From: Citrobacter sp. Cu233
GTDB lineage: Bacteria; Pseudomonadota; Gammaproteobacteria; Enterobacterales; Enterobacteriaceae
Assembly: GCF_030332225.1 (NCBI RefSeq)
Contig: NZ_JAOWIF010000042.1
Coordinates: 402,176-466,175 of the forward strand
Length of the DNA stretch: 64,000 nt
Direction: 5' to 3'
Each line of letters opens with the position of its first letter. The stretch's first letter is position 1. The translations under genes were made by a program, and so were the position numbers. Under the pieces are notes generated by a model. It did no database searches. It worked only from the letters and a program-made list of their open reading frames with translations, and was not told the DNA's origin. Shown here piece by piece: positions 26,619 through 59,129 of the stretch.

Positions 26619-27224
26619 TTACCAGTGTGCAGGTTTCGCTGCACCGAGTTGGGAGAGGTGTTGATGCAGGCTGGTTCCGTCCGGGAAGGTCAGTTCAGGT
26701 GCGATTTCAAAAAGTGGCCACAGCATAAAGCCGCGGTTTTTCATATCGTAGTGCGGTACGGTCAGACGTTCGGTGTTAATCACTTCATCACCAAACAGCA
26801 TGATGTCAAGGTCCAGCGTACGCGGGCCCCAGCGTTCGGCTTTACGCACACGGCCCTGTTGCAACTCAATGCGTTGGGTGTGATTGAGTAACTCTTCCGC
26901 TGCAAGGGTGGTTTCCAGCGCGACGGCGGCGTTGAGGTAATCGGGTTGATCCTGTGGGCCCAATGGCGGAGTGCGGTAGAAGGAGGAGACGGCAACGACC
27001 CGGCTGTCAGGGATTTCTCCCAGCGCCTGCACGGCAGCATTAACCTGCTCCAGCGGGGAGGCTAAATTACTGCCGAGTGCGATATATACCCGTCGTCTTT
27101 CAAGCTGCATCTGTGTTGGCTTTCCTCGCTCATCCCAGTCACGTACTGATGTACGCTCCTGGGCATTTGCTGTGTCGCCGCCTTGATGCAACCCGAAATC
27201 CATTGGGGATACGCGATGGGTCAC
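26619..27224 (-). CDS. folK: 6-hydroxymethyl-7,8-dihydropterin pyrophosphokinase with in-frame ERIC-encoded N-terminal extension
   Basis: Transfers pyrophosphate from ATP to hydroxymethyl-dihydropterin in folate synthesis. The core (from [12 protein letters not shown]) has the HPPK signature region [17 protein letters not shown] with catalytic Asp residues, and [25 protein letters not shown] 27224 overlaps the pcnB stop (GTGA), as I recall for E. coli folK. However, the first five codons (M-T-H-R-V) are followed by 41 codons contributed by a 127-bp ERIC element, so the open frame is 201 residues against about 159 usual. Removing 123 bp restores a normal start, [12 protein letters not shown]. 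The cell may use the extended form or restart at the internal ATG encoding [12 protein letters not shown] (163 residues, coordinate 27110). Core identity is certain; the start is not. Confidence 0.85.
27085..27211 (-). repeat. ERIC element inserted in the 5' coding end of folK
   Basis: Exactly 127 bp, the canonical ERIC length, bounded by TATACCC on one side and GGGGATA on the other. On the minus strand it contains GTGACTGGGATGAGCG, and on the plus strand ATGTACGCTCCTGGGC. Both are close to the conserved ERIC core (GTGACTGGGGTGAGCG and ATGTAAGCTCCTGGGG). A TA dinucleotide appears at each junction, consistent with the TA target duplication reported for these elements. Its net 123-bp contribution to folK is a multiple of three and has no stop codon in the folK frame. 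Confidence 0.88.
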
Positions 27225-28615
27225 GCACTTCCCTCACGGCGTGGCGCGCGTTTACGCGGACGACGGTGCCGACGACGTTCCGGCTCTTCATCCAGTTCGT
27301 TCAGCATGCCTTTTTGTTCAGGCGGAGCCGACACCTGGAATTCGCCCCACCACTGCGCCAGACGCTGCAGTTCGGCATTGTTTTCCACTTCTGCACGCAG
27401 CGCCAGCAAATCGTAGGCCGCGCGGAATTTTGGATGCTCCATCAGCTTCCAGGCACGTTTGCCCTGGCGGCGGGACATGCGTAGCTGAAGCTGCCAGATA
27501 TCACGGGTGAGCGATGTCAGGCGTTTCGGGATAGCCAGTGAACGACAGGCTTCATCCAACACGTCATTCATTGCCAGCGCGAAGGCGTCGTAGTAGGCCA
27601 GACCGCTTTCCTGGGCAATTTTCTGCGCGGTTTCCAGCAACGGATACCAGAACATCGCTGCAAACAAGAATGCCGGGTTCACGCGCATATCATTGTGGAT
27701 GCGGGTGTCGGTATTCTTTAGTACCTGGGCAATGATGCGTTCCATCGCGCTGTCACCGTCCTCGGTGAAATAGCGGGTGATGGTTGGGAACAGCGGCTGG
27801 AACAGGCTGTACTCACGCAATTTTTTATAGGTTTCATAACCGTAGCCCGCCTGTAACAGCTTGAGCGCTTCTTCAAACAGGCGTGCAGGAGGAATATCGT
27901 TCAGCAGTGTTGCCAGACGTGGGATCGGCTCTGCGGTTTCCGGGCTGATACGCATATCAAGCTTGGCTGCAAAGCGTACCGCGCGCAGCATACGCACGGG
28001 ATCTTCACGATAGCGCGTTTCAGGATTGCCAATCAGGCGGATTATACCGTCTTCCAGATCCTGCATTCCACCCACGTAATCACGAACGGTGAAATCAGCC
28101 ACGCTATAGTAGAGGCTGTTGATGGTGAAATCGCGGCGCTGGGCATCTTCTTCGATGGAACCGAAGATGTTGTCGCGCAACAGCATTCCGTTTTGCCCAC
28201 GCTGTGACGTTGCACGATCGGCTTCGCTGCCTTCATGATGACCACGAAAAGTAGCGACTTCGATAATTTCCGGGCCAAACATGACGTGAGCCAGACGGAA
28301 ACGGCGTCCAACCAGACGGCAGTTGCGAAACAACTTCCGCACCTGATCCGGCGTAGCGTTAGTGGTGACATCAAAGTCTTTCGGTTTTTTGCCCAGCAAA
28401 AGGTCGCGCACGCCACCGCCAACCAGCCATGCCTCGTATCCAGCCTTATTAAGCCTGTACATTACCTTCAGGGCATTTTCACTGATATCTTTGCGGGAGA
28501 TAGAGTGCTGCTCACGCGGGATTACCGTCATATGCGGACGGGCGACGGCAAGCTCGGCCTCGCGCTCCTCGCGGCTTAGCACCTTGCGGCAAAAATTAGC
28601 GACTCGGGTAAAAAT
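27221..28615 (-). CDS. pcnB: Poly(A) polymerase I, AUU start codon
   Basis: Adds poly(A) tails to RNA 3' ends, which promotes decay and controls plasmid copy number through antisense RNA. 464 residues. The nucleotidyltransferase motif [22 protein letters not shown] (about 66-87) has the catalytic Asp pair. The RNA-binding region [17 protein letters not shown]-type sequence is near 210, and the tail is very basic ([18 protein letters not shown]). The frame continues upstream of the homologous N-terminus only to a TTG. The E. coli gene starts with the rare codon AUU at [16 protein letters not shown]. Here the same ATT (28613-28615) is conserved behind GAGG, so I use it. The stop overlaps the folK start. 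Confidence 0.93.
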
Positions 28616-28686
28616 AGTGCACCTCGGTAGTGTCAAACTTCAGTCAGAACAAGTGTTGCTGTGTAAAAATCGCGGCTAATCATAGC

Positions 28687-50134: not shown

Positions 50135-50179
50135 GGTATACAGCAATTTTGCGTGACCTGTTAATCGAGAACGAAACAC

Positions 50180-51613
50180 ATGAAAAAAACCACATTAGCA
50201 ATGAGTGCACTGGCTCTGAGTTTAGGTTTGGCGTTGTCCCCCCTGTCTGCAACGGCGGCTGAGACAGCGTCTTCAGCAACAACAGCCCAACAGATGCCAA
50301 GCCTGGCCCCGATGCTCGAAAAAGTGATGCCATCGGTGGTGAGTATTAATGTCGAGGGGAGCACGACGGTCAATACGCCGCGTATGCCGCGTAATTTCCA
50401 GCAGTTCTTCGGTGATAACTCTCCGTTCTGTCAGGACGGTTCTCCGTTCCAGAGTTCACCGTTCTGCCAGGGTGGCGCTCCGGGTGCTGACAACGGCGGC
50501 GGACAGCAGCAGAAATTTATGGCGCTGGGGTCTGGCGTCATCATTGATGCTGCGAAAGGGTACGTTGTAACCAACAACCACGTGGTCGATAACGCGACGG
50601 TGATCAAGGTTCAACTGAGCGATGGTCGTAAGTTTGACGCGAAGATCGTCGGAAAAGATCCGCGCTCTGATATCGCGCTGATCCAGATCCAGGACCCGAA
50701 AAACCTGACAGCGATTAAGCTGGCAGATTCTGATGCGCTGCGCGTGGGTGATTACACTGTGGCGATTGGTAACCCGTTTGGCCTTGGTGAAACGGTGACT
50801 TCCGGTATCGTTTCTGCACTGGGGCGTAGTGGCCTGAATGCCGAAAACTACGAGAACTTTATCCAGACGGATGCGGCGATCAACCGCGGTAACTCTGGTG
50901 GTGCGTTGGTTAACCTGAATGGTGAGTTGATCGGGATTAACACCGCGATCCTCGCGCCGGACGGTGGCAACATCGGGATCGGTTTTGCTATCCCAAGCAA
51001 CATGGTGAAAAACCTGACTTCGCAGATGGTTGAGTTCGGTCAGGTTAAACGCGGTGAGCTGGGTATTATGGGGACTGAGCTGAGCTCTGAGCTGGCGAAA
51101 GCGATGAAAGTGGATGCCCAGCGTGGGGCATTCGTCAGCCAGGTTATGCCGAACTCTTCTGCAGCGAAAGCCGGTATCAAAGCTGGTGACGTGATTACAT
51201 CACTGAACGGTAAACCAATCAGCAGCTTCGCTGCGCTGCGTGCGCAGGTCGGCACAATGCCAGTGGGGAGCAAAATTAACCTTGGCCTGCTGCGCGACGG
51301 TAAGCCGGTAACGGTGAACCTGGAACTGCAGCAGAGCAGCCAGACTCAGGTTGATTCTAGCTCTATCTTCAAAGGTATTGAAGGTGCGGATATGAGCAAC
51401 AAAGGCCAGGACAAAGGTGTCGTGGTAAGCGATGTGAAACCGAATTCGCCGGCGGCACAGATTGGCCTGAAGAAAGGGGATGTCATCATTGGTGCGAACC
51501 AGCAACCGGTGAAAAACATCGCGGAACTGCGCAAAATTCTCGACAGTAAACCCGCTGTTCTGGCGCTGAACATTCAGCGTGGTGACAGCTCTATCTATCT
51601 GTTGATGCAGTAA
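50180..51613 (+). CDS. degP: Periplasmic serine protease and chaperone DegP
   Basis: Degrades or refolds damaged envelope proteins; forms hexamers and larger cages. 477 residues. The signal peptide (about 1-26, ending ATA) is followed by a trypsin-like domain with LA loop (two Cys in FCQDGSPFQSSPFC, about 83-97). The catalytic triad is His in TNNHVVDN, Asp in RSDIALIQ and Ser in RGNSGGALV (about 239). PDZ1 (about 285-375) and PDZ2 (about 390-470) follow. Three residues longer than K-12 in the Gly-rich part of the LA loop. Controlled by the sigma-E promoter at 50107. Confidence 0.97.
   Translation: MKKTTLAMSALALSLGLALSPLSATAAETASSATTAQQMPSLAPMLEKVMPSVVSINVEGSTTVNTPRMPRNFQQFFGDNSPFCQDGSPFQSSPFCQGGAPGADNGGGQQQKFMALGSGVIIDAAKGYVVTNNHVVDNATVIKVQLSDGRKFDAKIVGKDPRSDIALIQIQDPKNLTAIKLADSDALRVGDYTVAIGNPFGLGETVTSGIVSALGRSGLNAENYENFIQTDAAINRGNSGGALVNLNGELIGINTAILAPDGGNIGIGFAIPSNMVKNLTSQMVEFGQVKRGELGIMGTELSSELAKAMKVDAQRGAFVSQVMPNSSAAKAGIKAGDVITSLNGKPISSFAALRAQVGTMPVGSKINLGLLRDGKPVTVNLELQQSSQTQVDSSSIFKGIEGADMSNKGQDKGVVVSDVKPNSPAAQIGLKKGDVIIGANQQPVKNIAELRKILDSKPAVLALNIQRGDSSIYLLMQ

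Positions 51614-58239: not shown

Positions 58240-59129
<890 letters not shown>

Follow-up and report, generated by a model that had tools for sequence, protein, structure and literature searches.

An ERIC element between the native start codon and the body of folK in Citrobacter, and the start codon it may supply

In the window studied here, a stretch of 64,000 nucleotides from Citrobacter sp. Cu233 (contig NZ_JAOWIF010000042.1, positions 402,176 to 466,175), the essential folate gene folK carries a 127-bp enterobacterial repetitive intergenic consensus (ERIC) element between its native start codon and the part encoding the FolK core. The explanation that appears probable as a whole is that the element inserted in the ancestor of a group of Citrobacter species and that folK captured an ERIC start codon, ATG 27110, rather than the enzyme gaining a 41-residue extension. 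This ATG is in frame with folK in all 12 Citrobacter-type carriers of the element, which comprise 11 Citrobacter genomes and one genome of a neighbouring genus (G265), and the native start is usable in six of these 12. An earlier note on this DNA, made from its letters, had described the insertion and had offered two outcomes, an enzyme with 41 added ERIC residues and a start moved to the ATG inside the element. The comparison favours the second; the first is unsupported as a general outcome, since a long protein from the native start is impossible in the other six carriers and protein-level constraint was not found.

The ERIC element at the pcnB-folK junction

The features on which the argument turns are the following, in window coordinates.

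26619..27224, minus strand: folK open frame, 201 codons from the native GTG and 163 from ATG 27110
27221..28636, minus strand: pcnB, poly(A) polymerase I, directly 5' of folK (NF008634, 989 bits)
27222..27224, minus strand: native folK start codon GTG, overlapping the pcnB stop (GTGA); it opens the folK frame at the same place in six of six empty Citrobacter sites
27085..27211, minus strand: 127-bp ERIC element (TATCCCC...GACGGGTATA), at the TA of the conserved Tyr-Ile codons of folK
27185..27198, minus strand: 5' arm of the main ERIC hairpin stem, from predicted folds
27098..27111, minus strand: 3' arm of the same stem, containing ATG 27110, from predicted folds
27108..27110, minus strand: ERIC-derived ATG, the proposed working FolK start (163 aa)
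27122..27130, minus strand: Shine-Dalgarno-like AGCGAGGAA in the element, 11 nt 5' of ATG 27110; best anti-Shine-Dalgarno pairing -6.0 kcal/mol

The TGA of pcnB occupies 27223-27221, and the GTG at 27224 that overlaps it opens a frame running through the element to 26619, as had been proposed. FolK is matched over residues 46-201 of this 201-residue frame (NF007595, 324.6 bits, cut-off 252), and the best-matching solved FolK structures align from the same residue 46.

That the insert is an ERIC is borne out by primer sequences and by copies elsewhere in the genome. With letters that we take to be those of the ERIC-1R and ERIC-2 primers, ERIC-2 is matched at 19 of 22 bases (three mismatches) at 27127-27148, the sole match in the 64 kb and one seen in none of 100 shuffles, and part of the ERIC-1R stretch is matched at 14 of 15 bases at 27149-27163, with one weaker match elsewhere. 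The ERIC-2 string turns up in 274 papers that also mention ERIC. The genome (G000) has 22 matches at E <= 1e-6, the folK copy included, as befits a dispersed multicopy element. The right end reads GGGTATA in all 11 Citrobacter carriers and the left end TATACCC in seven of them (TATCCCC in the present genome), giving TA termini and terminal inverted repeats. The folK copy departs from the intergenic location typical of ERIC; such a location is usual, not defining, and intragenic ERIC copies are described in PMC2759123.

Relatives with an empty site, proposed beforehand as the comparison to make, were found in six of 17 Citrobacter genomes, and they correct the size of the insertion. The pcnB stop and the FolK core are 131 nt apart here and 5 nt apart at empty sites, a net gain of 126 bp (42 codons) and not the 123 bp that the earlier note had given. 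Given that a plain TA-duplicating insertion would add 125 bp, the left flank in carriers seems to contain one additional base. The right end would then have been in frame from the insertion itself, the native start having needed the one extra base.

Distribution among Citrobacter and its neighbours

The 17 Citrobacter genomes (loci L001-L017) show three states of the junction. Seven (L001-L007) have 131 nt from pcnB stop to FolK core and a full element, 127 bp long in each; four (L008, L009, L011 and L015) have 72 nt and an element with a 59-bp deletion, for a net gain of 67 bp; and six (L010, L012, L013, L014, L016 and L017) have 5 nt and are empty. The deleted 59 bp are flanked by two ACACAG-like repeats, between which they may have been lost by slippage. 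The old folK start is ATG in all four deleted copies and GTG in the other 13 genomes, which may be one shared event. In a neighbouring genus with seven of eight genomes empty, G265 retains just the element's right end and lacks the native folK start; its pcnB has a new TAA stop in place of the usual end, and its PcnB has a changed C-terminus (REE, as against REGSA here). In two Phytobacter loci and one of a Kosakonia sp. (L091, L095 and L097), the FolK core lies 83-84 nt from the pcnB stop rather than 5.

On a tree of pcnB and folK together, the full, deleted and empty states are interleaved, with six changes. In pcnB, the empty genome G012 falls beside a full carrier (99/94); in folK, its partner is an outside genome (95/94), so that at least one empty allele looks like a recombinational replacement. 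An assembly artefact is next to inconceivable as the source of the insert, which stands at the same junction in 11 of the 17 genomes, five of them matched to named isolates with their own assemblies.

Choice of start codon

The sequence of the element leading directly into the FolK core is ATG CAG CTT GAA AGA CGA CGG, with the ATG at -21 from the core. Six carriers have lost the use of the native start in one of three ways: the 59-bp deletion has put it out of frame in four congeners; in L005 a TAA starting 18 nt before the ERIC ATG shuts the long frame; and in G265 the start itself is gone. Within 140 nt in G265, the ATG at -21 is the one in-frame start with a Shine-Dalgarno-like stretch, a GTG at -51 having none. 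The deletion has also brought a stronger Shine-Dalgarno-like stretch beside the ATG in the deleted copies (-6.9 to -8.2 kcal/mol, 6-7 nt spacing).

These observations suggest a simple mechanism. Insertion at the TA of the conserved Tyr-Ile codons would have separated the native start from the body of folK, and the right end of the element, reading in frame into the gene, would have brought both an ATG and a Shine-Dalgarno-like stretch, so that FolK would be initiated inside the element. The protein would then begin MQLERRR in place of its usual three N-terminal residues and exceed its normal length by four residues. The 201-residue form may be a by-product, and minor use of the upstream start is compatible with a captured ERIC start.

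Several points weigh against a captured start. The long frame is open in six of the seven full-length carriers, and the extra base that restores the frame from the native start could point to present or past use of the long form. The Shine-Dalgarno-like stretch of the native GTG is just as good (-6.2 to -6.4 kcal/mol) and better spaced, at 6 nt as against 11, and weak in-frame GTG codons are present in three of the four deleted copies and in G265. Further, G003 and G016 are near-identical and the deleted copies may share one origin, so that the independent cases are fewer than the counts. The open frame, the retained native Shine-Dalgarno-like stretch and the retained overlap with pcnB would suit a FolK made mainly as the 201-residue form from GTG 27224, its ERIC-encoded N-terminal stretch being tolerated. 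Structures and models of FolK align from residue 46, so the tail need not harm the fold, and an AlphaFold model (25 sequences; mean predicted local distance difference test score, pLDDT, 68.6) gives residues 1-30 a pLDDT below 50, a predicted disordered tail. We nonetheless regard this alternative as improbable, given the six carriers in which the native start cannot produce such a protein, the absence of codon-level constraint and the behaviour of an intergenic ERIC used as a control.

Constraint on the ERIC stretch, whether at the protein or the codon level, was looked for through nonsynonymous and synonymous differences per site (pN and pS) over the 21 pairs of the seven full copies and was not found. 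The ERIC stretch of the long frame has a mean pS of 0.075 and pN of 0.073; folK proper, over the same pairs, has 0.45 and 0.057. The pcnB values of this comparison were left unused, those for pairs with L001 being invalid owing to a length difference of 3 nt close to the end of pcnB. The folK element averages 92% identity among carriers, and an orthologous intergenic control ERIC in six genomes is 95.4-100% identical. Element conservation was therefore rejected as a sign of constraint specific to folK, since the intergenic control is as conserved and slow change is thus not peculiar to the folK copy. The same holds for the open frame. The control ERIC is open in the same frame in four of its six genomes, the other two having a single stop, the first codon at the left edge, and six of 43 other sampled loci are without a stop, four of them at one orthologous site; the 43 loci are the best-scoring part of the match lists and hence a non-random sample, in which L123 and L130 are the same place.

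The equal conservation of the control also favours the view that the element is a neutral passenger without regulatory effect, folK working from whichever start is present. The interleaving of empty, full and deleted states among close species and the weak hairpin of L011 point the same way. Set against them is the retention of the ERIC ATG, kept in 12 of 12 carriers at folK as against 22 of 41 scorable other ERIC copies, although related copies are not independent. A neutral passenger is a live possibility, if one to which we give a little under even weight.

The hairpin and coupling to pcnB

The ERIC ATG is predicted to lie within the main stem of the element's own hairpin. A 145-nt leader with the element is predicted to fold better than its shuffles (z -5.63, 0 of 200 as good), as is a 201-nt stretch (z -3.15, 1 of 200). 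In the isolated leader ATG 27110 is predicted to be paired with probability 1.0, and the ATG bases are paired with probability >= 0.88 in the isolated leaders of 11 of the 12 carriers, the third base being free in L011. Base-pair covariation was examined among the seven full-length copies and set aside: three pairs have changed on both sides, too few, and several others are broken.

How a start so placed might be reached is suggested by the frames upstream of it. Ribosomes ending pcnB would restart at the old GTG or ATG, read into the element and open the hairpin, and this upstream reading would follow the long frame or, in deleted copies, a short upstream frame; such opening would keep folK coupled to pcnB. 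The earlier note had raised an altered pcnB-folK coupling through the hairpin, and the predicted folds are compatible with it. Three of the four deleted copies have, from the old start, a 21-aa frame that crosses the stem and terminates 8 nt beyond the ATG of folK; the fourth, L011, has an upstream frame of just 11 aa and a weaker stem at the ATG. The pattern fits termination-reinitiation coupling, within few lineages and on predicted folds. It also lends something to the idea that both starts are used and yield two FolK isoforms, the chief role of the upstream start being to open the hairpin. Shine-Dalgarno-like stretches stand at both starts, and upstream frames persist where they are unable to make FolK. 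This idea, which overlaps with a captured start, is possible but doubtful.

The predicted energies include further points that tell against initiation at the captured ATG. Opening the start region costs 14.8-20.1 kcal/mol in the isolated leaders of the seven full copies, falling to 5.8-10.4 kcal/mol once the leader is trimmed to the 30 nt preceding the ATG. The cost is 9.1-21.1 kcal/mol in the four deleted copies and 13.8 in G265, in all of which removal of the leader beyond -30 changes it little or not at all, the stem there being local. The leader of L011 does not stand out from its shuffles, 26 of 200 of which fold as well, and to the extent that predicted folds can be trusted this genome shows that the hairpin is not essential.

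A consensus scan found no promoter or terminator in 26900-27500. An Rfam scan of the window at gathering score gave two unrelated matches, to an HtrA 5' UTR thermometer and t44 RNA, at 50140-50185 and 58288-58374, each on the plus strand.

Recurrence and other ERIC copies

Among 392 genomes of the family, a sample that took in six of the 17 Citrobacter congeners, the right-junction pattern is present in seven: four of the same genus, G265, and G108 and G229, which are both genomes (2 of 2) of the distant genus g93, with a FolK 61% identical. The g93 element is 127 bp long in G108 and 103 bp in G229, occupies the same folK TA in the same orientation, and has the ends TATACC...GGGTATA in both; its homology to ERIC is evident only in the right-hand 37-39 bp, with local scores of 44 and 43 against maxima of 24 and 27 in 500 shuffles. 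The native-looking ATG is out of frame there (-134 and -110) and an ATG inside the element is in frame (-72 and -54). Less helpful to a captured ATG, g93 also has in-frame GTG and TTG codons inside the element and a GTG at the pcnB end. The query has 51 matches in G108 and 46 in G229, and of the matches listed nearly all are element copies, so that the recurrence is in part a matter of opportunity. Just 3' of the folK match in G108 is another copy of the g93 element (G108:C1:3265652-3265764). A looser junction pattern was tried and discarded. It matched 91 of the 392 genomes, and of five loci inspected four were ordinary (5-11 nt from pcnB stop to core) and one had no FolK match; its seven zero-mismatch matches are the same seven genomes.

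A broader proposal is that ERIC right ends are portable start modules, made up of an ATG, a Shine-Dalgarno-like stretch and a hairpin, that folK has captured, in at least two lineages, at the same TA and with the same orientation, the leader acting as a coupling switch in which the start is hidden in the hairpin and freed by pcnB ribosomes. We consider this rather unlikely as it stands. Elsewhere in the same genome, an ERIC (L124, G000:C23:68367-68471) adjoins the start of a frame that we take to be GppA-like, with an ATG at the junction. At another locus (L144, G007:C39:46245-46373) the long ERIC frame is open into what is presumably a FolP-like start (MKLFAQGSSLDLSH) six codons past the element, with its ATG intact.

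Implications and comparison with known systems

The locus represents a natural experiment in which a small non-autonomous repeat has entered an essential gene within its first codons and left it functional, presumably because the element brings its own in-frame start codon. The full, deleted, truncated and empty versions found in close relatives make start usage and the role of the hairpin directly testable. More immediately, automatically annotated FolK proteins may be 38 residues too long in species like these.

Literature searches found no report of an ERIC in folK, most subscription papers being outside their reach, and the words folK, Citrobacter and start codon are absent from the main text of PMC2759123. 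In-frame fusions of ERIC, IRU and RU-1 with open reading frames were described by Delihas in 2007 (PMC2759123), and the present case resembles these ERIC fusions in that the frame of a 127-bp ERIC runs into a host frame. An N-terminal ERIC stretch as such is already described there, PLU3667 of Photorhabdus, a hypothetical HlyD-like frame, having RU-1 close to its 5' end; fusions in proteins of conserved super-families are C-terminal. The insertion at folK differs from those fusions in affecting an essential folate enzyme, in apparently providing the start codon and in occurring in several allelic states.

Similarly, in Yersinia an ERIC hairpin is co-transcribed between two genes of one mRNA and affects the stability of the upstream transcript (De Gregorio 2005 via PMC2229807). 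The folK element likewise places a hairpin between two co-transcribed genes, but the effect proposed here is on the downstream start rather than on upstream mRNA stability. Rickettsia palindromic elements provide a further parallel, as small palindromic repeats in frame inside conserved genes (PMC10969869, PMC2229807); those are reported to be translational fusions that modify the protein, whereas the folK ERIC would mostly replace a start. Finally, the 5' UTR of ybtA has received two different insertions at one position, one of them an ERIC (PMC11225919), which resembles the recurrent insertion at one position near the start of folK, with the difference that the folK insert lies not in a UTR but between the start codon and the body of the gene.
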